From positions 124,001 through 188,000 of the forward strand of contig WTXI01000020.1 of the NCBI GenBank assembly GCA_022376515.1: a stretch of 64,000 nucleotides of DNA, written 5' to 3'. Shown here one piece after another: positions 1,441 to 45,670 of the stretch; position 1 is the first letter of the stretch; each line of letters opens with the position of its first letter. Under the pieces are notes generated by a model, which was given only the letters and a program-made list of their open reading frames with translations, searched no databases and was not told where the DNA came from. A program made the position numbers and the translations under genes. The DNA comes from Lactifluus volemus. Lineage: Eukaryota; Basidiomycota; Agaricomycetes; Russulales; Russulaceae.

Positions 1441-2589
1441 AGTGGCGCCTCTCCGCAGCACAGGTAATATAGGTAACTCCCACGGTACATCATCGAAATG
1501 GTTGATTAGACGTACCGCCCACCTACACAACTAGAGCGCTCTTCTCGTTATGGCAGAGCGTGACCCATAATAATTCATTTTCTGCCACCCCAAGACTAGA
1601 TGAAAATACGTTGAAAGCAGAGATAACTCCAACCGCGCTCGCCCTGCAACATATTGATAGCTCAGAGTTTCATCATCTCACTGTTTCATGGCACCTGGCA
1701 CATTGGGCACGGCAAGTTCTTGCCGTTTGGCTTACTACTCGGCAGTGCTGTAATGCTGTAAGACTTATCACGCTTTTAACCTAAAAGTTTTTAGACTTTT
1801 CAAGTTCGAATTACGAACCTTCGGTTGTTCATTCCACGCGGTAGGACTCGAAGTGCTACATGTTTACGACTTCAGAATCTGATTTACTCCCTCGGGCTGT
1901 GCCTTCTTCCGAGTCACACTTTCGATACATCGGATATCTCCTTCCTTAATGAACGAATTACACTGTATAGTAGATGAACAGCGTGTAATAGCAATCACAT
2001 TACGTGGTTCAGTGACGCAGACAATGTGAATAACATCATCTTTACGAGGGGGGAGAAAGGGATGAAAAAGACGTCCACTGGCCTGGTTGCGTTCCCCTTG
2101 GACGACTGTAAGGTATCCAGCGTCGCTTTGCCCGCAGAACCCGGCGGCAACCCGCCCATCCCGGCACTAGTCCCTTCTCCTACTAGGAGACGGGACGAAT
2201 GCGGGTGCGAGGGGTGGTAGTACCTCGAGTCGACACCACCCGCGACGCTGCCATCCAAGGCCCGGGCCAGACGTCAACCCATCAAAGCCGAGGCCGATAG
2301 TCGCGTCATCATTCCACCCTGTGTCGTCGGTGAACAAGCCGAAACCGCCATTCATCAGCCCACTGCCTAAGTCCCTCCGATGCCAGCGGCGAAACCGCCA
2401 CTGAGCGCAAGTTGCATTTCCATCACAGCGCGCTGATGATTCTGCTTGCTGTTGCTACTGCTGGTACGCGCCACGAAATCTTTGGTTGCCTTTGCATGCG
2501 CCTGGCTCCCAAGAAGGAATGGGTTCAATTTCCCCTGCCTGAGCGCCTCATTCCAGAACACAGATAAATCAGTTACGCTGTGGTTTAGA
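1440..2589 (-). pseudogene. Copy A: Med25 glutamine/glycine-rich C-terminal remnant plus 3' flank
   Basis: Minus-strand remnant of the Med25 C-terminus. The segment LRQGKLNPFLLGSQAHA (near 2560-2500) parallels LKQGELNPFLPGSQANA of the complete gene, followed by MEMQLALSGG and glycine-rich remnants down to about 1995. Downstream, 1440-2040 matches the 3' flanks of copy B (6100-6700) and of the complete gene (about 12240-12740), for example around the shared cagcgtgt..agc and gcttcagtgacgca stretches. Stops and gaps break the frame, and the long polyglutamine tracts are gone. Confidence 0.65.
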
Positions 2590-3945
2590 TTTTAATTTAC
2601 ATACCCGGGAAGACACCAGACGCACAGGGTGGTCTACCAATGAGTCCTCCAAAGGTGGGGGTGAGTTAGCCCACCAAGTGTCTCCACACTGCTGAATGGC
2701 AGAGCACGAGCTCGTCATAAAGTGTATGGGCGAAAGCGTAGCCAGGATCTGTACCCCAGGCCAATCAAAGTGTCATAATCCTTAGGCGCAAGGGGTATCT
2801 GCCAACTCTGATCAGGATCTGCCAAAAAATCAAGGAAATCCCTATTGAACGTGGGCTTGACAGCACTAAAGCTGAGGATCTCTGATGTCTGTGACTGTAA
2901 AAGTGAGCTGATTAGAAAAACTGGACATCGAGGATGCGGAGAGAAGAGGCTCTGATCCTAGCAAGGCATTCCAAGCAAGCGCTGACACCGCGAAACAAAA
3001 ATACGTGAAGGTTAGGAAGCGCCCCGTGGATCAAGGTCTGGTCGACGTCACGGTTTGGGTGAGGGGAATAAAACTGAACCATGAGAGTCTCCAGCTGGGG
3101 CATGAGTAAACGCCGTGAGTAGATAGTTCGGGGGGGGGGGGGGGGGGGACCAGGAGGATGGCGGGATACCATAAGCTCAAGGGAGATCCAATTAGATGAA
3201 AAGTTGTCCACACATGACGTAAATTGGGTGCTTGAGATCTTCCGGGAAAGAGTAGATTTGCAAAATCTCCGGGCGGAGACCCAATACAGATGCGTTCTAG
3301 ATTGGGAATTCCTCGTCCATAGCAGTGCCCAGATTTGGAGCAGGCATCCAAAGGGCAATACGATGCACACGGTCTCGCAGAGAGAGCGCATGCAATGCAC
3401 CTTCTTCATCTTCTGCTGTCATTTCACGGTTGCGATGTGTGTACCAGATGGTGAGTGGAAAGGTGGTGAGTATAGAGAAGGTGGATATCTGGTCGAATTG
3501 GAGACGCAAGAATGAAGTACCGCCACTTTCGAGAAACCTGAACTAGCTTGTACCACCAACGATCGGCGGTCCCACTGAATCGGATAACCTCACCACAACC
3601 TTCGATATCGAGTCAATAGAGATGGAATATATTGAAAAGGACGTCATTGTTGAAGATTTTATAAGCGCAGTTTGAATGTGGGCCCGAGCTCGGAAGGGAT
3701 AGCGAGCTTTGGGACTCGGACTCACGACATCTTGCACCTCGGCAGGGCTTCATAATAGGGGGCAGACGTGCTGTGGTGGACAAGTGGCTGGACGTGACAG
3801 TGAAGGGGTGAGTAACGACGGGGATGAGGTTGAAGATCAGTCAGTCGAGTGCCAGAGCTGTCACACTTCAGTCACTTTCCTATTGATTCTCTATCATGTC
3901 TATTCCATCAACGGGCAGCACCAGCTGCCCAAAAAAGATTAAATA
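2590..3945 (-). pseudogene. Copy A: decayed F-box/LRR module inside Med25
   Basis: Minus-strand remnant of the same F-box/LRR family as the open gene at 29211. The start MTSFSIYSISIDSI (near 3650) aligns with the hinge after the F-box, and blocks for MTAEDEEGALHALSLRDRVHR, PNLRHVWTTF and LPNLHVFLFRGVSA follow in order. The 5' flank also aligns with the 5' region of the gene at 29211. The 3' part is internally deleted, but the end, HPVRLV near 2650, is retained. Directly after it the sequence returns to Med25 (LRQGKLNPF), so the module lies inside a Med25 copy. Frame breaks and a 19-base G run make it a pseudogene. Confidence 0.7.
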
Positions 3946-4049
3946 ATGTCCACGCATCGCACAGCTTACGTGTACGTAACTTATTTGAAGTCGAAATTCT
4001 GAGTCGCAAATAGAATATGCTAAGCCAATAAGGCTCATGACCCCACGCT

Positions 4050-5560
4050 ATCTCAAGCAGGCTGCTGTTGGACGTTGGGCACAGGTAATCTCGGCATTTC
4101 AGAGTCAGGGAATGCAACACCGAGTAGGTGTCGTCTTAACGGCCTGATGAGAAGGTTCCTCGTAGGATGGCCCTTTCCTGGGATTTCCCAACTCGCAACC
4201 GCGTACTGAAAAGGCCTCAGCGAACAGTAGTTGATCGAGAACACCAGCAACTTACGCAGTTGTACAGTCTAAGCTCCTGGATCAGTCGACTATAGTCATC
4301 GTCGTTCTCAAGCGCGGGCCGGAAACGCATCGCCACGGACCCCACGGATTCCTTGTCCCTCATCCACTCCTGGAGCCTGATTATCGATACTGCGGGCCCA
4401 ATTAGTTCAAGTGACAAAACAAATGGCCACGATTTTGCCCGTCTATGGGGGATGAGTAGGAAGCAATGTAATGAGCAGAACAAACGTACGGATTGCCAAT
4501 TGAGTCAATTGCATACACGGGCACCGACAATGCCGTGACTGTGTTCCTGAAATGTAGGATTCCCGACCACCGATCATCGCTCCGTTGGCTGAGTGACAGA
4601 TCTAGTGGAATCGTGTCAAACCATGGTGTCGCAGGTCCACCTGAGTTCTACCAGACATGTCAATAATTATGGGACGCAAACGTCGAAGGAATTGGCGCAC
4701 TGCGTCAAACACCTCGAATGCGGGAGAAGGCTGAACGACTCTCATCAAATAATTGATGTTGCGCTGTCAGCGAGATATAAGTGTGGGACGTTCTGCATCG
4801 CCGAGTTGGCGTACTCACCTTCTCCACTTCATCAAGGAGGGTCTCCCATGTGAGGCTGTCGAGGGCTGGCGTGTTATTCCAAATCGGGTGCATATTACCA
4901 TCAGGCTTCTCTGCCGCAACGTGCCACAGGTGATAAGAGAACAGTTCCTTATGCTCCGCATTAGTCTGGAACGTGTCAATCATCTAGTGGGACCAAGGTT
5001 GTGTGAATGCAGATGAGTTGTGAGCTATCAGTACCTCAATGGCAGCCGCGTAGCCCTCGAGGATAGACATCCCTGAAGTAGTCTCGGTGGTCGAGCCCCC
5101 TATTCCAAGGGCGCTTGGGTGGCCCAGTAGTTCGTGCCCGTCCTCAGCGAAGGGCTTAATGAGGACAGGGGAGCTGTTGGTGCCGGAGGGTCCACACACG
5201 ACGTATCCGACGAGGGGTTTCTGCGACGATGACGGTCAGAGCGCATAAAGCCCGAGGAAGTGGACAAATTTACAGGAGTCGAGCCTGAGGGATCGACGAA
5301 CAATTCACGGCACAGGCCGGGAATTTGATCCCATACCATGAAGAGCAAGCAACTCTTATCGAGAAGAATCACGATAACTTTTCGCGGGTCTTGGAGAGGA
5401 AAACAGTTGACCATGGAAATGGAAGATTCGTTAGCTAAAGGAGGTAGAGGAGTTTGCATTTTGTAGCTCGGTACGTACGGTACTTCAGTAGACCTTTTTA
5501 TCTTCGAGACCCATGTCTGCGTGCGGGGCACGAAGGGGCTACGGCACTTGGCACTGGCAC
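4050..5560 (-). pseudogene. Copy A: Med25 vWA and PTOV-like part, decayed
   Basis: Minus-strand blocks in Med25 order. The vWA start is near 5415 (MVNCFPLQDPRKVIVILLD). The second vWA exon follows, ending GYAAAIE next to a donor-like gt at about 5035. The third vWA exon ends near 4980-4820 with LFSYHLWHVAAEKPDGN. A PTOV-like block covers 4483-4230, and QYAVASWEIPGKGHPTRNLL lies at 4210-4140, corresponding to YAIAGWEIQGTGRPTMNFLI in the complete gene. Exon order and some intron positions are kept, which argues for DNA duplication rather than retroposition. Stops and shifts interrupt it. Confidence 0.7.
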
Positions 5561-6099: not shown

Positions 6100-7245
6100 T
6101 CTGAGAGTCTCCTCGCAGCACGGCTAATAGATAATCATCATCAAGGCAGATTAGGTTATACTGTACCGCCCACCAACACAACTAGAGCGATCTTCTCATA
6201 TGGCAACCAACGGCTTCTCCTGCTGAGGAAACTATCTACGAATTACATGACAGTAACAGCTTAGGGTCTCATCATCACTTGAAAATTTCAAGGCACCCGG
6301 CACAAAGGACATGGCACCGCTTGACAGCTTGACCCCATGACCTGACCCGGCCGCGCTGGCGGCAGTGTTAGTTGTTCTAGGCTTTTAACGGTTTTCCAAT
6401 CTTATATGTCTGCTAATCAGAACGTCAGGAGAACGAACGTTCATCCGCGCCACGCGGCCAGACGTATTGTATACTGCATTCATTTCTACATGTATAGTAG
6501 TAGTACAGCTTCAGCATAATATACTCCACTTAAGCTGTGCCGGCCTTCTTCACACCACCCGATGTTTCCCTCCACGCATTACATTCCACAACAGAAGGAA
6601 AGCGTGTGACAGCATTAACTTATGTGCTTCAGTGACGCAAACAAGGTATAACACCAACTTTACAAAAGGGGAGAGGGTGTGGGGGAAAAGGGGAAATGGT
6701 AAAGATGGTCCGAGTCATTGGCCGTGGCTGCCTTCCCCACTATACTGCAACATTTCCAACGCAACTCTCCCACAGCACCGCATTCAACCCTCCTCATCTA
6801 GGCCCCTCACACCCAGCCACTCCGGACGTCAACCTCCAAAGCTGAGGCCTATGGACGCGCCGTTCATCCCGCCCTGCGCCCACACCGCGACGCCACCATG
6901 ACCAAATCCAAGCACGCCGAGGCCGGTGCTCCGGCTCACCGACGCCCCTCCTCGACAGCTACTCTGCTCATGATGCTCGCGGGAGCGATGTCTCCGCCAA
7001 TTCTGAAGGGACCCGAGCCGCCGGTGGGCAAGGCGATTTCCGCTAAGCCCACTCCGACACCCGTGTGCCGAGGCCACCACTGAGCGAAAGTTGCATGTCC
7101 ATCGCTGTCCGCTGATGATTCTGTCGCGCTTGTTGCTGCTGGCGCTGGCGTTAAGTATGAGTTTATTTCTGTTGTTGTACTTGCTGCAATGACGTTTTGG
7201 TTGGCCTAGCAGCCCGCTCGCCATAGCGTTTGTCCCTGACTCCAC
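6100..7245 (-). pseudogene. Copy B: Med25 C-terminal remnant plus 3' flank
   Basis: Minus-strand remnant of the Med25 glutamine/glycine-rich tail. NAMASGLLGQP near 7230-7195 is identical to the complete gene, followed by a degraded glutamine tract and glycine-rich remnants (GLGVLGFGHGGVA, GGMNGASIGL near 6840-6900). The 3' flank 6100-6700 aligns with 1440-2040 and 12240-12740. The junction with the preceding F-box module falls at about 7250, at a different Med25 position from that in copy A. Confidence 0.65.
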
Positions 7246-7254
7246 TTGTCAATC

Positions 7255-7990
7255 AAAATCTCTGCACACGATCCGCGAGCGCAAGGGGTGTTGACCCCAA
7301 ATCGGATCAGAGCCCACCTTTAAACCAAGGAAACCCCTCTTCACGGCGAGCTCAACAGAACTAAGGCTGAGGCTGATGCCTGCATCAGCTGCAAGTATAC
7401 AACGGCGAAGGCGGGTTGATAGAAAATTTGGACATCGAAGATGCTTACAGAAGGGGTGTCTGCCAGTGGCCGAGTACAAACAGGTCCTTCAATCAAAGTA
7501 AAACACTTGAAGCTTGCGTTTTTTTTTTGTCACATGCCAATCCGACATCACATTTCGACTGAGGGAGATGAAAATGTATCATGAGGCTCTAGCCCGGGCA
7601 TGAGTGAAGGCTGTGTGAGTATATAATTTTGAGGGAACCAGTGGATGGCAGGATATTGACAATTCGGAAGCCTGCGGTAGATATAAGGAAGATGCAAGTC
7701 GTGCACACATGGTGTAGATTGGGTGCTTGAACTGTTCCGGGATATATCGTCCTCTTTTATCGAGTCGACGGAATATGTTGAGAAGGATGTCATTGTTGGG
7801 TATATGGATAAGTGAGTGCAGTGTAGTGTGGTGGGTTGTGACAGTTGATGCATGGGACAAGGATAGTAAGTGTTTTTGGCTCACGAATTGGTGCACCTCA
7901 GCGGTGCTTCTTGATAGGTGCGGGCGCGCAGTGGTACCAGCGGACATTCGGAGGGGGGGGACAATGGCAAGGGGTGTGAACAATGTATTT
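7255..7990 (-). pseudogene. Copy B: truncated F-box/LRR module inside Med25
   Basis: Minus-strand remnant of the F-box family. IPNNDILLNIF near 7800 corresponds to the F-box start ILNNDVLLNIF of the gene at 29211, followed by remnants through the leucine-rich part. The last recognisable homology corresponds to the RVLCRHLDWQV region near 7260, after which the sequence passes straight into Med25 SQANAMASGLLGQP. The central part is largely deleted, so this copy cannot encode the full repeat domain. Confidence 0.6.
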
Positions 7991-8490
7991 GGCCATGGCA
8001 GTACGGGGGCGTTAAGAGTGACGTTAGATTCCCACCCGAAATGTCAATAGTTGGCTGTACACACATGGACACCAAAAGAAAGCTTCGACGCTGGGTGAGA
8101 AAATAGGGTGGAGCAGCACGAACAAACAAGACAATAGGGGTGGCTCGGTGACACAGTATAAAAAAGAGGACTGCAAGCACAGCTCACAGACATGACATAC
8201 AAGTCTGTGTAAAATGGAGTGAACTCTCCGCCAGGCGAGGAATTCCATTCTTTTGCCCTCAACACCCTGCAGCAGCGACCGTCGAAAGTTTGACTCCCAC
8301 ATCACCCCAAATGGACAATGTGGACATGTGAAAGGAAATGATGAAAATGGGTACGGGGAAAGGCACAGGAGGGGTGAAGCAATGCCTAAGAACATGACGC
8401 ATGCCGATTAGCCACCAGTGGACACATTTAAAGTCGATAAAATGATCTTCGACAAGCCATTTCTTGGAGAATAGGCTAGGTCAATGGGCG
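7991..8490. other. Intervening segment within copy B
   Basis: Lies between the PTOV-like block and the F-box module of copy B. Its right edge (about 8450-8510) resembles the matching edge of copy A (about 4000-4060), showing that the two copies share the Med25-to-F-box junction. The remainder has no recognisable coding content; the overlapping open frames seen here are unsupported. Confidence 0.4.
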
Positions 8491-9990
8491 AGACCGCACG
8501 CTATGTCACACCCACTGCTGCGGGGATGGAGGAAATGCCGGTATTCCAGAGACCGGGAATACAGCACCAAGCAGGTGCCGCCCTGCCGGCCTCATGAGAA
8601 GGTTTCTCGTAGCATGGACGTTTCCCGGGAGCACCCAACTCGCAACCGCATACTGTAAAAGCCTCAGTGGACGATTCATCGAGCATACAGGCAACCTACG
8701 CAGTTGCGCACTCTAAGAAACTCAACCAGTTGCCCAAAGTCATTGTCGTTCTTGAGCACAGGTCGGAATCGCATCATCGCGGGTCTGACCGTGACGCCTT
8801 TCGTCCACCGGTGGAAGTCGGTTATTGATACGGCAGACCCAATACATTCAAGAGACAAAACATCAGGCCACGTGGCCGCCAATGGCTGTCTATGAGATCA
8901 ATGTTTCAAATGGAAACAAATTAACAAAAGGAACACACGCACGAACCGCCGATCGAGTCAGATGCAAACACGATCGCCGTGGCTGTGTCCCCCCATCGTA
9001 GGATTCCCAGCCACCGATCATCGCTCCGTTGACCAAGTGACGGATCTAGTGGGATCGTGTAAAATATAGATTTCACAGTGCATCTGCGTGCATCTGGATT
9101 CTACCAGACCTGTTAATAGGCGAGAGGTTTGGGACATATGGTTAAGGGAATTGGCCCACTGTAGTAAACAGCTCGAATATGGGAGAGCCCTGGACAACAA
9201 AAATCGAATAATTGATGTTGCGCTGTTAGCGGAATATGAGCGTGGAACGTTCTGGTCGCCGAGTTGTTATAATTACCGTTTTGAGCTCTTCAGGTAGGGT
9301 CTTCCACGTGAGGTTGGCGAGGGCTGGCGAGTCATTCCAAATCGGGCGCATATTCCTGTCGGGTTTCTCGGCCGCAAAGTGCCATAGGTGATACGAGAAC
9401 ACTTCCTGATGCACCTTGTTGCGACTCTGGAACTCGTCAAACATCTAGTGGTACTTAGGTCATGTAGGTAAAGATAGTTGCGAGGCGTAAGTACCTCGAT
9501 GGCAGCCGCACAGCCCTCGAGGACAGCCATCCCTGAGGAGTACACGGTGTGACCTATCCCAAGTGCATTGGGGCTACCCAGTAGTTCATGCGCGTCTTCA
9601 ACGAAGAAGCGCTTGAGGAAGACGGGGGAATGGACGGAGCCAGAGGGGCCATACGTGATGTATCCGACAAGGGGCTTCTGCGGCGACGACGTTCAGGGCA
9701 TACGCAGCAAACCCCACAAACAGTGGAAACGTTTTACGGGAGACAGGCCCGAGGAGTCGACCAACAACTCACGGCATAAACTGGGGACTTGATCCCACAC
9801 CATGAAGAAAAAGAAGCTTGAGTCGAGAAGAATAAGAACGACTGGAATTTTTTGTGCGCCAGGAGGAGGCAAACAGTTAGCCATGGGAATGGAAGAGCTG
9901 CTAGCTGAAGAAGGTGGGGGCTTGCATTTCGCAGTTTGGCCTTTTATTGGTCGATAGTGGGTGCAAGTGGCCCGAAAAGCCTTTGGCACT
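8491..9990 (-). pseudogene. Copy B: Med25 vWA and PTOV-like part, decayed
   Basis: Minus-strand Med25 blocks in order. The vWA start is near 9882 (MANCLPPPGAQKIPVVLILL). The second vWA exon ends with GCAAAIE before a gt at about 9495. The third vWA exon has VFSYHLWHFAAEKPDRN (near 9400-9350), a PTOV-like block lies at 8880-8690, and YAVASWVLPGNVHATRNLL with LLGAVFPVSGIPAFP follow near 8655-8530. Stops and shifts break the reading frame. Similarity to copy A is closer than to the complete gene in the junction regions, implying that A and B arose from one another or from a shared chimeric parent. Confidence 0.7.
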
Positions 9991-12735: not shown

Positions 12736-13240
12736 TCATTGGCCCTGGCTGCCTTCCCCACTACGATGCATGAATGATTGAAGCATATCAAATGTCACTC
12801 TGCCCGCAGCACCAGGTGCCAATCCGCCCATCCCAGCACCCCCATTCAACCCACCACCTCCAGGCCCTTCACCTGCACCGCTACCATCCAAAGCCGCACC
12901 AGACGTCAACCCACCAAAGCCGAGGCCAATGGACGCGCCGTTCATCCCACCCTGTGTCGCCACACCACCAGCACCAGCGACGCCGCCATTACCGAACCCG
13001 AGGCCAGTGCTGCCCCCCATGATGCCCCCCGCGGGAGCCATGCCTCCACCGATTCCGAGGGGACCCAAGCCACTGGTGGACAAACCGAGTCCACCATTCA
13101 TCAGTCCGCTGCCTAGGCCCCCTCCGACGCCAGCGCCGAGGCCACCACTGAGTGCAAGTTGCATGTCCATCGCAGCACGCTGATGATTCTGTCGTGCTTG
13201 CTGCTGCTGCTGTTGTTGTTGTTGCTGTTGTTGTTGTTGC

Positions 13241-13271
<31 letters not shown>

Positions 13272-16200
13272 GCTGTTGCTGGTGTTGAGCGTGAGCCTGT
13301 TGTTGTTGCTGCTGCTGCTGTTGTTGTTGTTGCTGACGCTGTTGTACTTGTTGCAAAGATGTTGGCTGGCCTAGCAGCCCGCTCGCCATGGCATTCGCCT
13401 GACTCCCAGGAAGGAATGGGTTCAATTCTCCTTGCTTGAGCGACATATTCCCAAACATAGAGCCAGCAGACGGCGCATTAGTACCCGTATTTTGAGGGAA
13501 TCTATCCGCCTGCGACGCCAGTTGTTGTTGCTGTTGTGGTTGCTGCTGAGGCTGGTGTTGTGGCTGCTGCGGCACGACGGCAGAGTTTGGCATCTGTGCG
13601 CCTTGCTGTGCCTGTAAACGTTTCTGCTGCTGACGAGCAAGCATTTGCATGATCACAAAGTTGAGCTGTGGCTCTGGCAGCGACCGTACTTGCGGCGGCA
13701 ACGTGTTCACTAGCGCCTGCCGTGTCACCGGGTCCAGTTGCGGTAATCGCGGCTTCGGGATCTCTGGTATCCCCGATATTGGGAACGCGGCACCGAGCAA
13801 ACCCTGCGCAAATGACGCGATGAGAAAATTCATCGTGGGCCGGCCCGTGCCCTGGATCTCCCATCCCGCAATGGCGTACTGTCCAAAAAAAGCAGGTCAG
13901 AGGACAGTTTCTGATAGGAAAACACCAACGACGTACGTAGCCTTTATCCCTGAGCAATTTGACCAGCTGTCCATAGTTGTGCTCGTCCGTCCTAGGTGCG
14001 GGCAAGACCCGCATGATAACAGGTTTGGTCTTCTTGATCCACTCTTGGAACTCTTCCATTGCCACCGCGGGTCCAGCAGGAGCAAGCGACAAAAGCTTTG
14101 GCCACGTCGATGTCCGTCTGTAACGAATGTTGAAGCCTTTTCATTGATTGATGTATGCATAAGAAAATGTACGCACGCATTGCCGCTCGGTGCGGTTGCC
14201 ATGACTTGTGCGCGCACCTCCTTCTTCTCATTCCGCGTCGTGTCGGTTCCCTGCCACATCAGCGTTCCTAACCACTGATTGTCCCTCGGTTCGACAAACC
14301 CTCCCGTCATCGCAGGCCCGGGGCCCGAAGACGGGCTTGAGCCCGAGCCGGCGGCGCCAACGTTTGTTCCCGCGCCATTCCCACCTGTACCGAATGCCTG
14401 CGTGTTTTGCACGAACCCGCGCTGCTCGACAAGTTTCTTCATCTGGGCTGCGACGCCGGCTGGCATCTGCGAATGCTGCCCGAGGCTATTGCTCTGGGAA
14501 TGTCCGGGCTGTGGCATAGCACCGAGCGGATGTGCGTCAGGCGCGGACACGCCACCAAGACCGACCTGTGCGGGAATCTGCGTCGTAGTGGGGTTGAATG
14601 TCTGCAGTAGTGCAGGATTGGCAGCCGAGCCAGGGCCCACGTTTGCGGGCCATGTGGGGTTGATATTTGAAGGCGGTGGATTGATTGCCGACATTGGGTT
14701 TAGGTTTTGATTCGCAGGTATGTGTGATGTTGCTAGTCGCGGTGTTGACTGTGAGCTTGCATTCGGTGGCGCCGGCTGTGGGGTAGAAGACATTGTAGGT
14801 GTCTGGTGTTGGCTAGTACTGGTATTCGGCGCCGGCTCTTGCATAGGCTGCGATGACCCCTGCGCCTGGTCTAGCTTCTTCTTTTCGAGGGCTTTCAACA
14901 GGCGCCACCCATGGCTCATAGCAGCCCGTTGCCTAGTTAACAAAGCGTACTTGTTCCCATCTTCGGTACGGCCAGCTTGTGTCGCCTCCATATGCATGGC
15001 ATTCAACTCCATGAGACGCTTCTCTACTTGCTTGAGTTTAGCCTGAATGTCTGCAAGACTAGCACTTGCAAATTGATCTAGGTTCAGGGCGAACTGCGGA
15101 GTGTGAGCTTGGGGTTGAGGTTGAGGTTGCATCGGTGGTGGCTGAGATGTGGCAAACGATTGGTTTTGGGCGGGAGGCTGTGTAACCTGCGACGGCTGCG
15201 CTGGATTAGGCATGACAGGAGGCGCCTGGGGTGGGTTTACTTTGGAGGGTTGGTTCCGGTTTTGCGTCACTGCGGGGGCAATCTCTGGAGTACGTTGGGT
15301 AAGGTCGATGACGCCTGAATCCACTGGTTCGCGGGTAGGTGGCTTCGGTGGAGAGAAACTAACAGCAGCTGTTAGAGGGACAGCCGGGGAAGCAGAGGAT
15401 AAAGACGGTGGTGCAGGGACGGTGGCGGGGGGGACCAGGGGACTGGACTGAGGGACTGCCTTTTTGGCAGCTGCCAAGGCAGGCGAAGCGGTCTGCGACG
15501 AAGGCCTTGAAAATTTCGGACCCGGTGAGCGCTGCTCGGTAGGAGTCTCTGCGGGACGCTTGGCGGGAATTGTGGATGGCACGGTAGCTGAGTTAAGAAC
15601 TATGAGACTTTTTATAGGCGGAAATTAATGCATTGAGGTACTACCTCTAGGTTTAGGTGAGGAGAAACCGGATAGCAGGACGGTGTGATGCGCGCGTGTA
15701 GGGAACCATGGTGTTATTGATGTACCTGAGATCTATGAGACGCTGTCTAGTGAGAGGGAGGTGACGTGACGTTGACAAGAAGTGACGCACAGCGGAGAAA
15801 AGGCCAGAAAGTTTGGGACAAGGGCAAACGAGAAGCATGGAACAGTTGATGTCTCGCTGTAGGTGAAATTGGGTCATCAACGCTCCGCGTGATTATGGGC
15901 AGGAGGCCCACCTTCCTTATTTCATCGGGGATAGTGTTCCATGTGAGGCCGTCAAGGGCCTGGGAGGAATTCCAACGTGGGTGCTTGGCATTATCAGGTT
16001 GCCCAGCCGCGAAGTGCCACAGGTGATAAGAAAACTCCTCTTTGGACTTGTCGCGGGATTCAGCCAAGAGAGGACGCAGAGGCTTCTGATTGACACCGCT
16101 TCTGAGGAGATCAAACATCTAGTGGTACTGAGGATGTTGTATGAGGGCGAGTAGAACGCGAGTCAGAAGTACCTCGATTGCAGCCGCATAACCTTCTAAA

Positions 16201-16581
16201 GCAGCCATCCCTATGGATCCCCCGGCTAGTGTACGACCTATTTCCAGTCTCGCTGGATCTTCCTTTAGTTCACTAACCGCGTCTGGTGAGAAGAAGCGGT
16301 TAACGAAGACTGGGGATTCATGGCAGTCGGAGGGGCCATAAGTGACGTATCCTAGACGGAGTTGCTAGAAGATGGAGAGATCTGTGGGTGAATTTGGAGG
16401 TAAAGAGGATATTCAAGCCTACCTTGAAAGAGGGATTACCCTCGGAAAGACGCTTGAAAAGGTGGGCACAATAATCACGAAGGACGCGGTGCCACTCGGA
16501 AGCGAGGGTACGGCTAGAGTCGAAAATGATGACGACGGCTGGTATCGCTGATGGGTTTTGAAGGGGTGACGTACTTGCCAT
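12736..16581 (-). CDS. MED25: Mediator complex subunit 25 (complete copy)
   Basis: Encodes a Med25-type Mediator subunit that contacts transcription activators and RNA polymerase II machinery in the nucleus. Exons read on the minus strand: 16581-about 16425, 16364-16173, 16118-15912 and a fourth from 15856 form the von Willebrand A domain (start VVIIFDSSRTLASEW, later GYAAAIE and FSYHLWHFAAG). 15587-14177 is a proline/glutamine-rich linker ending in a tryptophan-rich block (NQWLGTLMWQGTDTTRNEKK). 14117-13937 and 13878-12736 carry the PTOV-like activator-binding region (TSTWPKLLSLAPAGPAV, RDKGY, then YAIAGWEIQGTGRP) and a C-terminal tail rich in Q and G with long polyglutamine. The intron after exon 4 is not certain. 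Splice sites of the other exons are good GT-AG pairs. It is the only copy with both a vWA and a PTOV part in open frame. Confidence 0.82.
13196..13345 (-). repeat. CAG/CAA repeat encoding polyglutamine in Med25
   Basis: On the coding (minus) strand this is an almost uninterrupted series of CAG and CAA codons giving two polyglutamine tracts split by a short A/H-containing linker. CAA interruptions are frequent. Glutamine-rich tails are usual for fungal Med25. The tract accounts for the long leucine- and valine-rich antisense frames here. The partial copy at 31917-32010 has a much shorter and interrupted version. Confidence 0.9.
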
Positions 16582-25482: not shown

Positions 25483-26441
25483 CTATCCCCGGGGTATATG
25501 GTCAATGGGCTCAAAGTCGGCTGCTTGGCTGGCCTCATAGAGGTAGATGAGACCAAAACAGAGGAATAACGCTGCTCCACCTAGCGTGACTGAGTAAAGA
25601 GGGGTTAAGCAATGCCGCAGCAGGAGCGGGAGGAATGCATACCATGCTTTGCCGATAGTTTCGTGGAAATATACCGGCCTGCAATGACAGCCAGTGCAGT
25701 GCAAAGGCTATGCCCAACAACCGTCCCAATTGCGACAACGTATACATTCTGCAGGTGGAACCCGCTCAGCATAGATGGAGGATGGATGAAATGAATGCGA
25801 CCTCAACTCACATGGGCGGCGGCTAGCATAATTGTGGCGATTTGGCTTCTGTCACCCCACTCCCCTAAGAAGGTGAGCACAAATGCCTGAACAAAAACTG
25901 GTCCAAAGACCAAACTAGACAGGTTCCGCGCCCCATCTAGTAAATCCTTCAGAACAGGACGTGATTTTGGCTTCTCTCGCGCATGATCGTCCCGAATAGG
26001 GCCACCTGCTTCAATTTCTTCGAGAGGTATTACCTCACCGTTGGCCGCTATTCGCCCGGTTCCATCATGCTCGGCGACGTCTTCGTTGATTTCTTCTTCT
26101 GCTTCGCGCATCTCCTCGAGAACTTTCTCGTTCCCACTGCGCATGTTTTTTCCCTCGAGGAATAACTTGGCCCCAAAGACGATGAAGAGAACGCCAGCTG
26201 CGAGTTGGGTCCAGTGCTTTGGGATCAACGTTGGGAGTATGTGACCCATAGCAGCTGAGAGAATGGACATGACCACGAGCGAGCCAAATGCGCCTGCGAA
26301 GACGACGAGACGTGGGTGCCGCATTGCAAGAATGGCTGCGATGAGAAAGGTCTTGTCACCGATCTCAGAGAACATGATCATAGCAAATGCCTGTACAAAG
26401 CCATGTACACTTCCGTCTATTTCAGGAGGTGAAGAGTCCAT
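25483..26441 (-). CDS. GDT1: GDT1-type Ca2+/Mn2+ : H+ antiporter (UPF0016)
   Basis: Golgi-type cation/proton exchanger that supplies Mn2+ for glycosylation and removes Ca2+ from the cytosol. The first exon has the two hallmark motifs, MFSEIGDKTFLIAAILAM and TFLGEWGDRSQIATIMLAA (E-x-G-D-K/R-T/S), each opening a three-helix half. The halves are separated by a charged cytosolic loop of about 80 residues (EKVLEEMREAEEEI). Two short introns follow; the tail exons encode NVYVVAIGTVVGHSLCTALAV and GGAALFLCFGLIYLYEA before the stop at 25483. The start MDSSPPEIDGSVHGF has no clear signal peptide, so an upstream leader exon may be missing. Confidence 0.9.
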
Positions 26442-28300
26442 CGTTGATATGGGGAACGCGTGAAGGATTCCGGCAATTCTGTGGATTGTGGAGGGAAAGG
26501 GTTATTAAGGTGGAGGCCGGGAAATAAGGTGGGAAAGATTTGCGGTAGCACGACGTGCCTGTAATATTTCGAAAGTCAGAGAAGGTGTAATATGATTAGA
26601 TAGAAGAGATAGAAAAGTGGATGAAATGTAGGTTCATGGGACAAATGTGCTGTACTTGAGAGAAACGAATGCTGAGCGCATAAACGGCAAACCCGAGCGC
26701 CTACCGAGCACAGCCGAGCGGTGGCCTCGGGAAGCTTTGGTGTTATCGGATTCTCCTCATGCTCTGTCCTTCTCTGCTAGTCTCACGTAGCTTGTGCCAC
26801 TATGATAGCCGTTGTCATCGTCTTCGTATTTCGAGCTTCGGAGGCGACAGTCAATGGGCTCGCAACCCCGAGGCCTTTCTACAACATTTGAGAATCTAAC
26901 AGACTGAGAGATACACCTTGTATGAGCCAATGGTTCCCACATACATCTCTGGCAACTTACTCGAATGGCCGCCTCCAACCAGACATTCAGATCATCCCAG
27001 AGCCTCCTCCTGAGCTTCTTTCATTCGTTCCTCCTTTTCTCCATGCGCTTCTCGTTGATCTCCCCCTACAAATTATCCACAGACCATCAACAGATCGTCT
27101 ATTCGCTATGCATACAATCTTGGCCGTATGCATCAGCTCCATCCACGGGCACACGATTTGTATTTCCGGACCCACAGCTCCGCACCTTCGTCATATCTAC
27201 GTCTGACCCCTACGTGGGACAAGTAATGTTGGTCGCACGACAGTCTACCCGAACGTGGCGGGCATCAATAGCAGCAGTTCGTACCCCGCGCGCTTCAACG
27301 CGGAGACTATGCGAACGCGAACCGTATGGCCGACCCCGTCAATCGATATTAATTTTCAACGCAAGCAAGTGAACGAATGGAAACAAGAATGAACACGAAG
27401 ACGTGGCTCGAAATCGTGGGTTAGGGACTTTCACGGCGTTGCTGACTGACTAATGTGTATGCTTCGCTCAATTCATTAATTTGCCTTCGGGATGTGCGCG
27501 CACCTGCCACAGCGCCAGTGCTTCTTCCCCTTTCCCTCCCCGAGCATGCCTGCAGCGTCGATCGGTGCGCAGCCTACCTTTGTCTCCGGCGATCTTAATG
27601 ACGAACGACTCGGGATCCCAGGATGTGGCCGCTACGCCAACGGCACCTAGTGAGGGGGACACCCGCTCCGTTTCACCATCAGTTCCCGTGCCGTCGCCGT
27701 CGTTTGTGCTCCGCTTGTCTCCTTGGCCTTGCGCTCTGGATGACGTGTCTACCTCCGCATTCTCTTCTTTTCTGTACAGATCCCGACTCTGACGACGGGC
27801 CCTTGGCGGAGATGGTGGCCGCGATGATAATGATAATGAATGCTCTCTCGACCCTTTCGTGACCTGTCAAATCCCGGTAGCTGACGCGCACACACGCCGC
27901 AAAACAACGCCTCCTCGTTTTCGTTCCCTTTTACATTTTATTCTGTCTCTGCTATTGCGCTGCTGGTGCCCGCTGCGAATGCGATTTGGTATCGTCAGAC
28001 GAATCGGCTGCTTTGGCTACCTGTACTGTCGACACAGCCGACAGTTCGTGACTCCTCACTTATCGATGTAGAGAAAAAAGAGTGATTCCATTTCACCTGC
28101 TGGATGGCGTGACACCTCCACATAGGCGCACTTAGGTTCATGAATCCCTTTTGCATATGTGGTGGGGGATGAACTTTACATGGACGGTCCCTAAACAGGT
28201 CGCGGGAAGACAGGAACGAATATAATTTACATAAGTGAATTGTGTGCCTGTACTGTACCAAGCACGTGGAACCTGCAAGCAATCTATCACCGTTGTTATT
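26442..28300. other. Region without a supported gene
   Basis: Short open frames on both strands lack domains. A candidate start at 27600 (MTNDSGSQDVAATPTAPSEG) is followed by a plausible small intron ending at 27779 and a short acidic exon (DPDSDDGPLAEMVAAMI), but the phase does not join cleanly and I leave it unassigned. Pyrimidine-rich stretches near 26990-27060 and 27500-27545 could be promoter DNA. Confidence 0.35.
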
Positions 28301-29110
28301 ACTTCTCCTTAGCACTTTCTGCTCCTTTTTACGAGGCTCCCCCGAGGTGCGCCAACTTTCGATTCAATAGGGCTCACTACTGCGTTCGTGTTCACCTATC
28401 CATGTACTCATGATGATATCCTTCTCAACATATCCTATCTCTATCAACTCGACATCTGGGACGAAGAAGATAGCGAGACTATCCGATTAGATGGGATCGC
28501 TAACGTCGGTGGTACGAGCTAGCTCAGTTCTCTCGAACAAGGCGGTACTTATTCAATTCGACTGGATATCCATCTTCTTTGCACTGTCGGCTATGACATG
28601 ACAAGTGTCGTCCCAAGTGAGAAGTAGTGGAGTGGTAGGAAGGAAGTAGAATCGAACGTGAGGCTACCGACTGTGGCGCTGATGCTGGGATGCTGAGACG
28701 AGACTTTAGCACATGAGAGGACATCTGAGAGAAGAGAGAACAAGAACAAGATAATGATTCAGAAGTGGAAAAAACATTGGGTGCAGGTGGAGGAAAGGCC
28801 AGGCATGTGGACGTGGCGTTTTGCGTCCAAGTGGCAACAGCACACATGTTGTGCCTGTCCTTCCACTCACCATTTGGTACACAAAAATAGCAACCGAAGT
28901 GACATCAAAAGATGGAGAAGGTACGCAACTCGCGCTCTCGCACCGCGACTCGGACCGTGTGCACCGCATTGCCCTTTGGATTCTGGGCAGAAGAATTTTC
29001 AATGCTGGAATATTGGGTCTCCGCCCGGAGGTTCTACGACTACAAGCCCAGTGTTTCCTAGGACGTTCTATCTACGCAACTGGAAGCAGGAAGCAGTGCA
29101 GTGCAGCTGA
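28301..29110 (+). pseudogene. Decayed F-box/LRR gene copy
   Basis: Plus-strand remnant directly upstream of the open F-box gene. 28340-28560 repeats the 5' end of that gene (gggctcac, YLYQLDIWDEEDSETIRL-like sequence, then LAQFSRTRRYLF), and 28850-29090 repeats the PLTIWYTKIATEVTS and DGEGTQLALSHRD region. Between them are about 290 bases with no match, so it has been interrupted. Stops and shifts prevent translation. Tandem to its intact relative with the same orientation. Confidence 0.6.
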
Positions 29111-29210
29111 CTGACGTGGACAGCGTGAGGGACCCAAACCCATCGGCCATAACCCTGCGTTGCCCATACCCAAGCTGATCCCTACCTGTGGTGCTCACCC
29201 CTTCCCTGGC

Positions 29211-32200
29211 ATGTCCAATTACTTGTCCACCACTGCTCGGCGCCCTATTAAGAAGCTTCGCCGAGGTGCACCGAGTCGTGAGTTCCAAAGCTCACTTTCC
29301 CTTCCGTACACTAACTCTCGATTCTATAGGGCTCACAAGCAACACATTGCGCTCACCCCTCTATATCCTCAACAATGACGTCCTTCTCAACATATTCTAT
29401 CTCTATCGACTCGATATCAGAGATGAAGAAGATAGCGAGAATATCCGATTCAGGTGGGACCGCCAACGCTGGTGGTACAAGCTAGCTCAGGTTTCTCGAA
29501 AGTGGCGGAACCTCATTCTTGAGTTTCCGATTCTACTGGATATTCATCTTCTATGCACATATGATGTGCCTGTAGCGGACATGCTAGCACATTCACCACC
29601 CCTTCCACTCGCCATCTGGTACACAAATGGCAACCGCGAGATGACAGCAGAAGATGAAGAAGGTGCATTGCATGCGCTCTCTCAGCGTGACCGTGTACAT
29701 CGTGTTGCCCTTTGGATGCCACCTCCAAACCTGGGCAAGTTCATCATGACCATGGATGAGGAGTTCCCAATTCTGGAACGCATCTTTATTGGGTCTCCTC
29801 GAGCAGATTTCGTAAGCCCAGTCTTTCCCAGAGGATTTCAAGCACCCAACCTACGCCATGTGTGGACAACTTGGCGTCCGATTGGATCTCCCTTAGTGAC
29901 AACTACCACAGGGCTCGTCAATCTCGAGCTTATAGATATCCCGCCGTCCCCCTGGTTCTCCCCAAGCCGTCTTCTCACACACCTCTTGCTCATGCCTCAG
30001 CTGGAGACTCTCAAGGTTCATTTTTACTCCCCTCATCCAAACAATGACGTCGACCGGACCTTTACGCACGGGACGCTTCCTAACCTTCACGTCCTTTCGT
30101 TTCGTGGTGTCAGCGCTTACTTGGAAGGCCTCGCTCGGATCAGAGCCCCTTCTCTCCGCATCCTCTATGTCCAGTATTTCAATCAGCTGACTTTCACCGT
30201 CCCATACCTATTGGACTTGATACAGGCATCAGAGAGCCTCAGCTTCAGTGCTGTCCAGCTCACTTTCAATAGGGATTTCCTTGATTTATTTGTGGGGCCT
30301 GCTCAGATTCAAGTTGGGAAGCAATGCCCCTTGCGCCTGCGGGTTTTGTGCAGACACCTTGATTGGCAGGTAGCATCTGCGGTCCAGATCCTGGGCACTT
30401 TTTCGCCCATGCTCTCCGTTGTGGAGGAGCTCAAGCTCATCCACCTGGCGCACGATGGGTCGTCAGAGCCCTACAATGAGGTCGAAAGATCACAATGGCG
30501 TGAGCTTTTGAGACCGTTCAGCAATGTGAAGACACTTCTAGTGAAGAGCACAAACCCACTAGTTGGGGGATTTCTTAAGTCTCTGGGTTCAGAGGATGGA
30601 GAAATAACTCTGGAACTCTTGCCCAATCTGCTGGAGCTTCGACACTTTGGTGACTGCGGTGTTGATGATATACTTATGCCATTCATAACTGAACGACAGG
30701 CAGCGGGCCACCCTGTGCATCTGGTATGTGAATCAAATCCAACTCAAAATGCTTGCTTCAAGCTGATTTATCTTTGGCATACATGATCACTGGCGACATT
30801 AAATAAATCTCCATCACCTCCACGCAAAAATAGTCTTCCTCCGGAAACCAGTGGGTTGGAGCGCTAATGTGGCAGGGAACCTCGACGCGGAATGAGAAGA
30901 AGGAGGTGCGCGCACAAGTCATGGCAATCGCACCGAGTGGCAATGCGTGCGTACATTTTCTTATGCATACATTAATCAATCGAAAAAGCTTCAACATTCG
31001 TTACAGACGGACATCGACGTGGCCAAAAATTTTGTCGCTTGCTCCTGCTGGACCCGCAGTGGCAATAGAAGAGTTCCAAGAGTGGATCAAGAAGACCAAA
31101 CCGGTTATCATGCGGATCTTGCCCGCACCTGGGACGGACGAGCACAACTATGGGCAGCTGGTCACGTTGCTCAGGGATAAAGGCTACGTATGTCGTTGGT
31201 GTTTTCCCACCAAAAGCCGTCCTCTGACAGGCTTTTTTTTTTTGGACAGTACGCCATTGCGGGATGGGAAATACAAGGCACGGGCCGGCCCACGATGAAT
31301 TTTCTCATCGCGTCATTTGCGCAGGGTTTGCTCGGTGCCGCGTTCCCAATATCGGGGATACCAGAGATCCCGAAGCCGCGATTACCGCAACTGGACCCGG
31401 TGACACGGCAGGCGCTAGTGAACACGTTGCCGCCGCAAGTACGGTCGCTGCCAGAGCCACAGCTCAACTTTGTGATCATGCAAATGCTTGCTCGTCAGCA
31501 GCAGAAACGTTTACAGGCACAGCAAGGCGCACAGATGCCAAGTGGTGGCGTCGGCGCCGGCGTCGGAGGGGACCTAGGCAGCGGACTGATGAATGGCGGA
31601 CTCGGCTTCGCCACCGGTGGCTTGGGTCCCCTCGGAATCGGTGGAGGCATAGCTCCCGCGGGGAGCATCATGGGGGGCAGCACTGGCCTCGGATTCGGTA
31701 ATGGCGGCGTCGCTGCCGTCGTGCCGCGGCAGCCACAACACCAGCCTCAGCAGCAACCACAACAGGCGGACAGATTCCCTCAAAATACGGGTACTAATGT
31801 GCCCTCTGCTGGCTCTATGCCGCTCAAGCAGGGAGAATTGAACCCGTTCCTTCCTGGGAGTCAGGCGAATGTCATGGCGAGCAGGCTACTACTAGGCCAA
31901 CCAACATCTTTGCAACAAGTACGACAGCGCCAGCAACAACAACGACACCAACAACAGGCTCACACTCAACACCAGCAACAGCAATCGCAGCAGCAGCAAG
32001 CACGACAGAATCTTCAGCGTGCTGCGATGGACATGCAACTTGCACTTAGTGGTGCTAGTGGTGTGGCGATGCAGGGCGGGATGAACGGCGCGTCCATTGG
32101 CCTCGGCTTTGGTGGGTTGACGTCTGGAGCGGCTTTAGATGGTAGCAGTGCTGGTGAAGGGCCTGGAGGTGGTGGGCTGAGTGCGGGCGCTGGGATGGGC

Positions 32201-32290
32201 GGGTTGGCGCCTGGTGCTGCGGGCAGAGTGACGTTGGACATGTTTCAGTCGTTCATGCATCATAGTGGGGAAGGCAGCCAGGGCCAATGA
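29211..32290 (+). CDS. Candidate F-box/LRR - Med25 C-terminal chimeric gene
   Basis: Exon 1 (29211-29277, MSNYLSTTARRPIKKLRR) joins exon 2 at 29330 and continues with a fungal F-box (LNNDVLLNIFYLYRLD, WYKLAQVSRKWRNLIL) and leucine-rich repeats such as LPNLHVLSFRGVSAYLEGL. Exon 2 can end at a stop at 30786, giving a free F-box protein. A gtatgt donor at 30724 and a tag acceptor at 30831-30833 instead join GHPVHL in phase to SSSGNQWVGALMWQGT. The frame then runs through the Med25 PTOV region (TSTWPKILSLAPAGPAVAI; RDKGY; YAIAGWEIQGTG) over two introns shared in position with MED25 to the stop at 32290. Every junction and frame is intact. The vWA domain is absent. What is seen is the layout; transcription as one mRNA is inference. 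The F-box part would offer SCF ubiquitin-ligase recruitment. Confidence 0.55.
31541..31714 (+). repeat. Relocated glycine-rich block within the partial Med25
   Basis: This 174-base, frame-preserving block (GVGAGVGGDLGSGLMNGGLG to GFGNGGVA) lies after RLQAQQGAQMP here. In MED25 the corresponding block sits after MDMQLALSG (about 12975-13149 on the minus strand). At 32047-32060, where it would be expected in the copy, it is missing. Short homology (agtggtg, gctg) marks both edges. Confidence 0.8.
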
Positions 32291-33054
32291 CCTTCTTTTC
32301 CTTCTCCGTTCGTGTTGTGTGCTTGTCATGGCCAGGTGCATTGAGATTATGAAAAATGAAACACCAAGCTATCAAGATACAACGGTTGGAGCTAGCATTG
32401 TTAACATTTAATTTTGTATAACTTATGCAGCAGAGAACGGGTTGTCCATAACGAGATGAGCGCTGTAGTTCTTACTGGTATATCTTCTACTCGGTTGCAA
32501 TATCACGGGCTACTGGAGTTGCCTTTGTAGCCTTTGGTCGATCAATCATGTGGGTTGTCGGACGAAGGGAATTTCCTTCCTTTGCGCCGTTCCGAAGCAT
32601 TGATGATGGGCCGCTAGTTATCCGTTCAACATTTCTCTTTGGGGTTTTGATTGTTACAATGTGGAGGGTGTAGCTCGGAACTTGAAGAATTGCTGCATAG
32701 GGGGCGAACACCTCTGCCCATGACACTGCGGCAAAATTTGCTGGAAATTCTGTATTCAATTGCGGGCAAGATTGCGGGCGGACAACTCGAACGTTTGAAC
32801 CTTCAGATTTCTCTCCACTCTGCGGTTCTTGCACTACGTCAGGAGAGGGACATCTCAGCTTGACAGCAAACTTCCCAATGCATGAGGACCCATGTTGTTT
32901 AGTATGGCCATTAAGGAGAGGTGGCACTTTGTACTAAAAGCGGGAAATCACGGGGAAATTGTCCAATCTAAAAATGAGACCATTTTTGACCGAGCGTTTG
33001 AGGACCTTCAGTTCACCTTTCCCTATCCACCTACCTACAGGTTCTGTGTACCAA
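32291..33054. other. Spacer between the chimeric gene and ERG1
   Basis: The first 300 bases follow the Med25 stop. 32590-32870 is the inverted partner of 10164-10930. The remaining 180 bases before the ATG at 33055 hold the probable ERG1 promoter; a pyrimidine-rich stretch (ttcacctttccctatccacc) lies at 33011-33032. No gene is supported. Confidence 0.45.
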
Positions 33055-34762
33055 ATGTCTTCCACCAAAAGCTTATCGTACGACATTATCATTGTCGGCG
33101 CTGGTATTGCTGGCTCCGCTCTTGCACATGCGCTCTCCACCTCGGCCTCTACATCCCGCGATACGCCCCTTCGTATCGCCGTCATCGAACGCTCACTCGC
33201 AGAACCCGACCGCATCGTAGGCGAGCTCCTCCAACCTGGCGGCGTCACAGCTCTGCGTTCTCTCGGCCTAGGTGACTGTCTCGAAGGCATCGACGCCGTT
33301 CGCGTGCATGGCTACGCCGTCTTGGATGGGGACCAGACCGTACACATACCGTACCCTTCCCGTGCCGAGGGTCGCTCTTTCCACCACGGCCGGTTCGTGC
33401 AGAAGCTCCGCGCGTGTGCCAAAGCTGCACCTGGAGTCGACGTTTTTGAAGCGACGGTGACCGACTTGATCGACTGCCCGCTCACCCATCGGGTAGTTGG
33501 TGTGCTGGTGCGCCGGGGCGGCGAGACAGATATCAACGAAGCTTTCTACGCAGACTTGGTCGTCATCGCTGACGGCTGCTTCTCCAACTTTCGCAGCGCT
33601 GTGATGGGAAATAAAAACGCGCTGGTGAACAAGCCCGCCTCGCGTGGTCATTTCGTCGGGGCCATCCTCGAGGACGTTACGCTTCCGATCCCGGCATGGC
33701 ACAGTTGCGCTGATAAAGGGTCACGGTCCCGTGTTGTTGTACCAGATTGGGGAACACGAAACCCGGATCCTCATTGACATCAAAAACCCAGTTCCGTCAG
33801 ATCTCAAGGTCAGAGGTTTAGGGGGGGCGGAGGGTGCAAAAGTACGCTTTTAACTCAAACTCGATTCTCTCTTCTAGAACTATATCCTCACCAACATCGT
33901 CCCGCAACTCCCCGAACCGCTCCACGCAGCCATTCACCGCGCGTTTACCAAAGACCGTCTCCGGCGCATGCCCAACTCGTTCCTCCCGTCCGTAGAACAA
34001 GGCGGGCCGCACAACAGGGAGGGCGTTATCCTCCTCGGCGATGCATGGAACATGCGCCATCCGCTCACTGGTGGCGGCATGACCGTCGCACTTTCGGACG
34101 TCGTCCTCCTCGCGCCGATGATCGTAGCCGAGCCTGATCTGGCCGACTGGCACGCAATCACGAACTTGCTCCACCGGTGGCACTGGGCACGCAAACCCTT
34201 AGCGGCGACAATCAACATCTTGAGCGTCGCGCTGTACGACCTCTTCAGTGCCGAGGGTGAGCACACACACAGAATCGGACGCTAATGATTTATAATCCCG
34301 CTACCACAGATGAATCCTTAGCTGTTCTGCGAAAAGGATGCTTCAAGTACTTTGAGCGCGGCGGCGAGTGTATCCGAGGTCCAATTTCGTTATTGGCCGG
34401 GTGAGTGTCCAATTTAACAAAATATTTTTGGATGGCCAAGTCCTCATGCGATGTCATAATCCAGTATCGCATCAGACCCTGTCTTACTCTTCATCCACTT
34501 TTTTTCCGTGGCAATATACTCCATCTGGGTGTTGTTCACACATCCACGAGATATGTATAACGGAGGCCCAGAAAAGCGCAAACTGGTCAGACCCACGCTC
34601 GTAGAATACCCGCACTATGCATCGCCGGTGTGAGGGCTGTGAGTGGGCTTATTATCTCGATCTGTCTGCTCTGGTTCCTTACATTTTTTTTCATATGGCC
34701 AGTTCTGGACGGCAATTGTGGTGTTTGCACCCTTACTATGGACAGAGATTCGTTGGTGGTAG
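33055..34762 (+). CDS. ERG1: Squalene epoxidase (frame broken by an indel)
   Basis: FAD-dependent squalene monooxygenase, forming 2,3-oxidosqualene in the ER for ergosterol synthesis. The start [20 protein letters not shown] has the FAD-binding GxGxxG fold; [14 protein letters not shown] and the [19 protein letters not shown] motif near 34041-34095 are family signatures. Introns at 33809-33877, 34257-34309 and two later ones lead to a C-terminal membrane anchor ending [10 protein letters not shown] at 34762. Near 33690 the frame leaves VTLPI and resumes as [20 protein letters not shown] one base over, with no splice site available. Either one extra base or two lost bases is present. Apart from that the protein is complete. 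Confidence 0.9.
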
Positions 34763-35020
34763 TTGAACTGGTTTTACCTTTTTTCGTTACCTTCATTCAC
34801 TCCCTAGATAGACTGCCATCGCAAATGGATTGTAGCGGACCCACTTTTGATTCGCGTGTGCTCTCACGAAGTCCAGGGAAAAACTCCCGATGGTTCGTAC
34901 AGCCAGTTCCTTAAGGAACTTGTACGGGTTTGGAAGGGTGTGATGAAAAAAAAATGATGCTACAATTTGACTGTTGCTAGAGAAGCTTGGACATGAAAGA
35001 TCACCCCCCCCGGAATGAAA

Positions 35021-45660: not shown

Positions 45661-45670
45661 CGTCACCACG

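Follow-up and report, generated by a model that had tools for sequence, protein, structure and literature searches.

Does the basidiomycete Lactifluus volemus possess a gene in which an F-box/leucine-rich repeat (LRR) protein is joined to the activator-binding part of the Mediator subunit MED25? The question is raised by positions 29211-32290 of the 64,000-nucleotide stretch analyzed here (the window, C113:124001-188000 of a 62.4-Mb assembly), where an earlier note on the sequence had proposed a chimeric gene of this kind. The best reading, to which we give somewhat better than even chances, is a real chimeric gene that arose by local duplication near MED25 and probably encodes an SKP1-CUL1-F-box (SCF) adaptor with the MED25 PTOV domain as activator bait. 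A joined transcript, alone or beside a short one, probably exists. The joint appears to be more than chance, since the PTOV-plus-tail frame has been kept since the duplication, two Lactarius proteins carry comparable fusions and members of the F-box family change from the core to differing tails at this point. The proposal of a chimeric gene has thus gained support from the kept frame and from the Lactarius fusions, while a two-gene or two-isoform reading stays open because of the stop at 30786 and the AATAAA at 30802. Two results go beyond the earlier note: the MED25 part is an inverted duplicate, and the F-box core belongs to a family with variable tails.

The spliced frame 29211-32290 comprises five exons on the forward strand and gives 931 amino acids, with a single terminal stop and none internal. 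Exon 1 (29211..29277) opens with the ATG at 29211 and encodes an N-terminal leader beginning MSNYLSTTARRPIKKLRRGAPS; intron 1 (29278-29329, GTGAGT..TAG, 52 nt) separates it from exon 2 (29330..30723), which contains the F-box and LRR core. Such a leader, with an ATG, lies upstream of the core in 16 of the 17 family loci that were compared with their flanks, and a GTGAGT-type donor was visible in the seven loci whose upstream stretch reached far enough. The proposed junction intron (30724..30833, GTATGT..TAG, 110 nt) leads into exon 3 (30834..30946), where the MED25-like PTOV domain begins; homology to the MED25-like gene of the window starts at 30846. PTOV continues through exon 4 (31007..31187) into exon 5 (31250..32290), which ends with a Gly/Gln-rich tail and a TGA stop at 32288-32290. 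The two introns in this part (30947-31006, GTGCGT..CAG, 60 nt; 31188-31249, GTATGT..CAG, 62 nt) match the MED25-like gene in position. When checked against the sequence, the exon and splice coordinates of the earlier note proved exact at every position. The gtatgt donor at 30724 and the tag acceptor ending at 30833 are present and in phase, the 3' introns lie at the intron places of the gene at 16581-12736 (-), and the F-box frame, if left unspliced, terminates at 30784-30786. The claim that the fusion does not include a vWA domain also held, as no vWA match was found near 29211-32290.

A branch-like CTGAT is present at 30762, and the next AG occurs only at 30833, where it opens the PTOV frame; the proposed splice is therefore favored. 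An alternative acceptor at 30851 also keeps the frame and would give 925 residues. At the same place, family locus L024 has an intron-like stretch, homologous to window 30724-30786 and ending in CACAG. The AG of this CACAG position is gone in the window.

The source of the MED25 part lies in the window itself, about 16 kb away. This MED25-like gene (12736..16581, minus strand) contains vWA, PTOV and a Gln/Gly tail, its structure between 15726 and 15587 being tentative, and the fusion carries its C-terminal half, introns included. Positions 30846-31541 show 94% DNA identity, in inverted orientation, to 14280-13587 (-), the PTOV part of the gene. Further blocks extend the duplicate to 32299, two at 94% and 91% and a gapped one at 79%; three of the four coding blocks of the copy are 91-94% identical. 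Weaker blocks from the MED25 3' flank extend to 32836, the right part of the duplicate (32604..32836, +) matching 10924-10841 and 10356-10244 (-); the duplicate therefore represents some 4 kb (14280-10244) of the MED25 side. Exon 3 differs from the MED25-like gene by 8 mismatches in 101 positions and one 3-nt gap, exon 4 by 10 in 181, and the initial 291 nt of exon 5 by 3 (1%). The Gly-rich block at 31541-31715 precedes the Gln-rich block in the copy and follows it in the MED25-like gene of the window, with the frame kept; by eye, the Russula earlei protein P0002 has the MED25 block order.

Two origins of this copy were rejected. A retrocopy of MED25 would not retain both PTOV introns, and an assembly join of a MED25 allele disagrees with the two alleles on contigs C113 and C255, which each match the copy at 94%; the copy is therefore not an allele. 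The more general possibility, that the assembly joined two unrelated pieces, draws on the fact that the assembly looks only partly phased. It is nevertheless highly improbable: the copy matches neither allele, it has private indels and a displaced Gly block, and the joint is internal to C113, a contig of 480,794 bases.

In its pattern of change, the MED25 copy resembles coding sequence. Compared with the MED25-like gene, its coding sequence has five indels, all multiples of three, whereas its non-coding DNA (introns and downstream stretch) has 12, none of them a multiple of three (Fisher p = 1.6e-4). The test is limited by the natural slippage of Gln tracts in threes and by constraint on the MED25 branch itself. 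In the PTOV-plus-tail coding sequence, the proportions of synonymous and non-synonymous differences were 0.142 (pS) and 0.041 (pN), giving a pN/pS of 0.29. In neutral simulations, with the indel rate drawn from 461 non-coding positions, an open frame survived 2 times in 4000 (0.0005) at coding divergence and 0 times in 4000 at non-coding rates. The copy has likely been translated since its duplication.

The F-box/LRR core was characterized through its AlphaFold2 (AF2) model, in which strands and helices alternate (predicted local distance difference test score, pLDDT, 82.2). Foldseek gave 22 matches at E <= 0.001 with this model; 14 were F-box/LRR chains by title (COI1, D3, TIR1 and SKP2 among them) and the other eight were NAIP/NLRC4 and cytoplasmic-lattice entries, with low to modest TM-scores (0.19-0.37). 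The model and these matches indicate an LRR solenoid of FBXL-like fold after the F-box, and the nearest solved structures are among SKP1-bound F-box/LRR proteins. The last core helix (residues 431-443) ends just ahead of the joint. The ratio of non-synonymous to synonymous substitution rates (dN/dS) of the core was 0.28-0.43 against eight family loci. Among F-box relatives with a name, the nearest belong to Lactifluus.

This core belongs to a large family, with 1589 first-look candidates in the genome, 88 of them scored and listed. DNA similarity to the window copy ends at 30710-30726 in 16 of the 17 loci compared, and at 30786 in L024. A protein search with the core, admitting lengths of about 512-1629 residues, found 410 relatives, 120 of which are listed; among the matches listed, three are named F-box-like by their source, 113 have the core end at query residues 485-488 and 30 have a tail of at least 40 residues. 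Both the loci (16/17) and the listed proteins (113/120) thus have a conserved core that ends at the HPVHL position and gives way to copy-specific sequence.

The tails themselves are diverse. Ten loci (L013, L016, L017, L019-L022, L026-L028) have Gln/Glu/Arg-rich tails. L014, L018 and L024 share a common piece, the end of which recurs in L015. L023 and L025 have ARID-like tails (E 0.01 in L023, below cut-off), and L012 has a long stretch after the core that is 95% identical to L023. We tentatively take the tails of L012, L014, L015, L018 and L024 to come from an ARID gene of SWI1 type. An ARID over the cut-off is found at C110:41859-42188, by coordinates about 1.7 kb downstream of the L012 F-box, and another in the Russula earlei protein P0112 (E 1.4e-10, from residue 585), whose matched core ends early, at 459. 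ARID-like fragments are repeated in F-box clusters on C110, C113:18371-31160 and C601; the fragment at C113:20356-20514 lies in a 615-amino-acid open frame that, by coordinates, also covers an F-box core. Tail domains were scanned for in the 30 long-tailed proteins and P0001, ten proteins being scanned singly, and the Pfam scan gave no domain for most tails. After the core, a RING domain exceeded the Pfam cut-off in P0098, P0105 and P0118, C2H2 in P0102 (below cut-off in P0031 and P0050) and ankyrin in P0083. For an SCF adaptor, a RING domain within the F-box protein itself would be unusual.

Fusions of the two modules recur in Lactarius. A protein search with the PTOV part returned five proteins, including one fusion, P0001 (Lactarius sanguifluus EDB89DRAFT_845017, NCBI), and not including P0134. 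The search with P0001 returned 25 proteins including itself, adding P0134 (Lactarius psammicola BJY52DRAFT_720687, NCBI), whole or fragmentary MED25-like proteins and seven proteins that have an F-box/LRR core. Both fusions are deposited as 'hypothetical protein'. P0134 has the architecture of the window fusion with an additional half core in front: the core itself covers model positions 50-516 of 517, and PTOV, of which only about 102 residues align, begins at residue 710; its AF2 model was poor (pLDDT 57.8) and was not used. P0001 contains the core end (model 439-516, 32.5 bits) followed from about residue 92 by the MED25 mid-region, PTOV and tail. Its gene model does not include the F-box itself, its MED25 piece is longer than that of the window fusion, and its core end is 64-73% identical to the seven F-box/LRR-core proteins, one of which is named F-box (L. 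akahatsu). In P0134, P0001 and the window fusion, the MED25 part is joined at the same core end. Metagenome proteins had been considered as proof of spliced F-box fusions; they were dropped, as the first intron seems to remain unspliced in P0008.

In the PTOV tree, the window fusion groups with the MED25 of the window (99/96), and P0001 and P0134 fall inside a Lactarius clade (100/99) with no resolved order within it. The starred branches require two label changes and the best tree three, and in the core tree a 100/100 branch lies between the window copy and P0134. The window and Lactarius fusions thus seem to be separate captures. In L. akahatsu, a MED25 protein (P0126) and an F-box protein (P0145) come from contigs that are both 753703 long and presumably identical; F-box genes may therefore lie near MED25 in this species too.

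A number of observations weigh against a joined SCF adaptor and have to be set beside these results. The unspliced F-box frame reaches its own stop (30784-30786) inside the proposed junction intron after a short tail, VCESNPTQNACFKLIYLWHT, and the AATAAA at 30802 also lies in this intron. The distance from the branch-like site to the acceptor at 30833 is 71 nt, and the intron measures 110 nt versus 52, 60 and 62 nt for the other three. A survey of 9 donors and 19 acceptors gave 49 GT/AG pairs within length and position limits; 20 were frame-compatible and 12 gave an open frame, which makes frame-keeping joints common here. An in-phase joint is therefore weak evidence by itself and was rejected as proof of fusion: the earlier note was right that it is present, and gave it too much weight. 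The F-box-like profile PF12937 reached only E 0.018 on the core (15.2 bits, cut-off 24.3), and two of 31 family members match it at E<=0.01. On the fusion PTOV, PF11232 stayed below its cut-off of 25 (E 0.0013, 19.0 bits), SPOC scored slightly better than Med25 (E 4.5e-4), and a PDB profile search with PTOV found no MED25. Among nine PTOV rows, PF11232 matches six (best E 2.1e-4) and SPOC two. For the vWA of the MED25-like gene, PF11265 matched one of five rows weakly (E 0.18) and a PDB profile search gave no useful match; this vWA matches four Russulaceae proteins at 67-73%, and the named MED25 relatives are from Russula and Lactarius. The name MED25 for the 3' part of the fusion is thus a weak one, drawn from weak profile matches. 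A tail is not a rule in the family, since 36 of the 120 listed proteins have 10 residues or fewer after the core. Finally, the second-haplotype contig C255 stops at window 25196, short of the fusion, and decay is seen in units A and B, the other places in the array where F-box and MED25 sequences are neighbors.

The stop and the AATAAA lead to a reading as two genes. The F-box/LRR gene would end at 30786, with polyadenylation after the AATAAA at 30802, and a short MED25-PTOV paralogue would start at about 30867, where the first in-frame ATG lies. Frame maintenance probably means that PTOV is translated, not necessarily together with the F-box. PTOV duplicates without an intact F-box occur elsewhere in the genome, and the Russula decolorans protein P0133 (V8E52_004162) has two PTOV-like domains in tandem. 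However, just 59 nt (30787-30845) separate the F-box stop from the first MED25-like base, so that a promoter for the MED25 part would need to overlap the coding sequence of the F-box gene. With a start at 30867, the first PTOV residues would also be lost, including W3 and G5, two columns invariant in nine sequences, and the two Lactarius proteins are deposited as fused. Two separate genes are therefore improbable in our view. Alternatively, alternative splicing or intron retention might yield both products, a short F-box protein with the tail given above and a long one that includes PTOV. The short and the long frame are each open and in order, and the stop and AATAAA would be intronic; however, DNA like the short tail was found only in L024 among the 17 family loci, where its frame is interrupted. 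We regard this as possible at a rather low probability; being a form of the best explanation, it overlaps with it in likelihood.

The decayed neighbors point to another explanation, in which frequent duplication of F-box and MED25 fragments gave an open fusion by chance, due to decay like units A and B. Such a neutral by-product fits the presence of several MED25 fragments, stops interrupting some of them, on contigs C113 and C255, as well as the decay of the two units, the very large F-box family and the frequency of frame-keeping joints. The indel pattern of the coding sequence, the rare survival of the simulated frame and the recurrence of the F-box/MED25 fusion in Lactarius argue against it. 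The near-identical start of exon 5 (3/291) suggests gene conversion from the MED25-like gene; this could have repaired that start, which would weaken the selection argument, and could mimic part of the evidence against neutrality. A neutral by-product is unlikely on balance.

How might the chimeric gene have formed and acted? The ancestral F-box gene would have had an intron at the core end, as L024 still seems to have, and the duplication break would have fallen inside this old intron. The old acceptor would have been lost along with the old 3' exon; with it gone, the next AG (30833) would now lead into the PTOV exon. This would yield an SCF adaptor in which the activator-binding PTOV and the Gly/Gln tail follow the end of the LRR and vWA is missing. 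MED25 docks in Mediator through vWA and binds activators through ACID/PTOV, according to PMC5467580. The chimera would not be expected in Mediator, because it has no vWA. Most likely, PTOV would capture transcription activators and the F-box would bring them to SKP1-CUL1; alternatively, the chimera might compete with MED25 for activators. Given a joined protein, we hold an activator-directed SCF adaptor to be a tentative possibility, short of an even chance.

The fusion lies in an array rich in duplicates. Directly upstream is a decayed tandem F-box copy (28354..28982, +; blocks of 76% and 74% DNA identity). Unit A (2099..5235, -) is a decayed MED25 paralogue with vWA at 5235-4819, PTOV at 4441-4077, an F-box relict at 3792-2756 and a Gly/Gln tail; unit B (6714..9884, -) is another with the same order (vWA 9884-9181, PTOV 8876-8530, F-box relict 7930-7216, tail). 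The idea that these units represent earlier versions of the window fusion found no support, as the F-box stands between PTOV and tail, a different order. A further vWA-bearing MED25 paralogue piece is present at the left edge of the window (8-548, -). Diverged MED25 vWA/PTOV paralogues form an array at C113:108467-138280 and C255:773-27813, a hot spot of MED25 duplication; some are open in both haplotypes (C113:114954-114589, 306 amino acids; C255:4692-4327, 309 amino acids) and others have stops. Another decayed vWA-PTOV unit, at C334:751049-751419, had no F-box match at E 1e-3, and by eye a short F-box-like scrap follows it. No second haplotype beyond 25196 was found for the three stretches tested (27000-29200, 33050-36500 and 39000-46000). 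The remaining neighbors identified by Pfam are ordinary: GDT1 (25806-26501, -), a flavin adenine dinucleotide (FAD) oxidoreductase with a weak squalene-epoxidase match (32938-33774, +), a TCP-1 chaperonin (35875-36828, -), an MFS transporter (40448-41878, +) and a methionyl-tRNA-ligase-like gene (55592-56431, +).

How does the fusion compare with known systems? In the AF2 model, the 450-residue core resembles in fold the FBXL-type SCF adaptors COI1, TIR1, D3 and SKP2; the window fusion differs in the MED25-derived PTOV and Gly/Gln tail added after the LRR end, in an F-box below the Pfam cut-off and in low TM-scores. With MED25 it shares the first copy block (PTOV and introns, 94% DNA identity to the window gene), but it has neither vWA nor the middle region and stands behind an F-box/LRR core. 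P0134 and P0001 likewise have a core end followed by the MED25 PTOV, but are separated from it in the PTOV tree (both) and in the core tree (P0134). The RING-H2 ligases MBR1 and MBR2 degrade MED25 in Arabidopsis by binding its vWA (PMC5467580). There, ubiquitin ligase and MED25 act in one pathway as separate proteins, whereas in the window PTOV is built into the F-box protein.

Among the top-ranked matches in open PMC papers, we found no description of an F-box/MED25 fusion or of this Russulaceae F-box family. The nearest published kind seen (PMC12062965) is the Caenorhabditis F-box genes with a captured transposase helix-turn-helix domain, where a multicopy F-box family has likewise captured a foreign domain. 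There, the captured domain is transposon-derived and mostly on the N-terminal side; in the window, by contrast, host domains are captured at the C-terminus, in a basidiomycete. The word 'fungi' does not occur in the text consulted ('fungal' was not looked for).

If the locus makes one protein, the evolution of SCF adaptors has more than once combined the adaptor of a ubiquitin ligase with the surface by which Mediator binds activators, and the product would be a natural version of a targeted degrader for transcription activators. The locus would then also be a concrete example of exon swapping, on the intron side, between neighboring genes that are unrelated. Some plant NLRs (nucleotide-binding LRR receptors) carry integrated decoys. 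By analogy, and as a speculative proposal that is rather unlikely to hold in full, the large Russulaceae F-box/LRR family might consist of integrated-bait SCF adaptors, in which tails are exchanged at a fixed point behind the last LRR helix and host domains (PTOV, ARID, RING, C2H2, ankyrin) serve as bait or effector modules. The MED25 module would then have been acquired on at least two occasions, probably on three, and would either tag activators for destruction or keep them sequestered. One protein at this locus would provide a testable idea for the size of the F-box family: a stable LRR core combined with a point of tail exchange.

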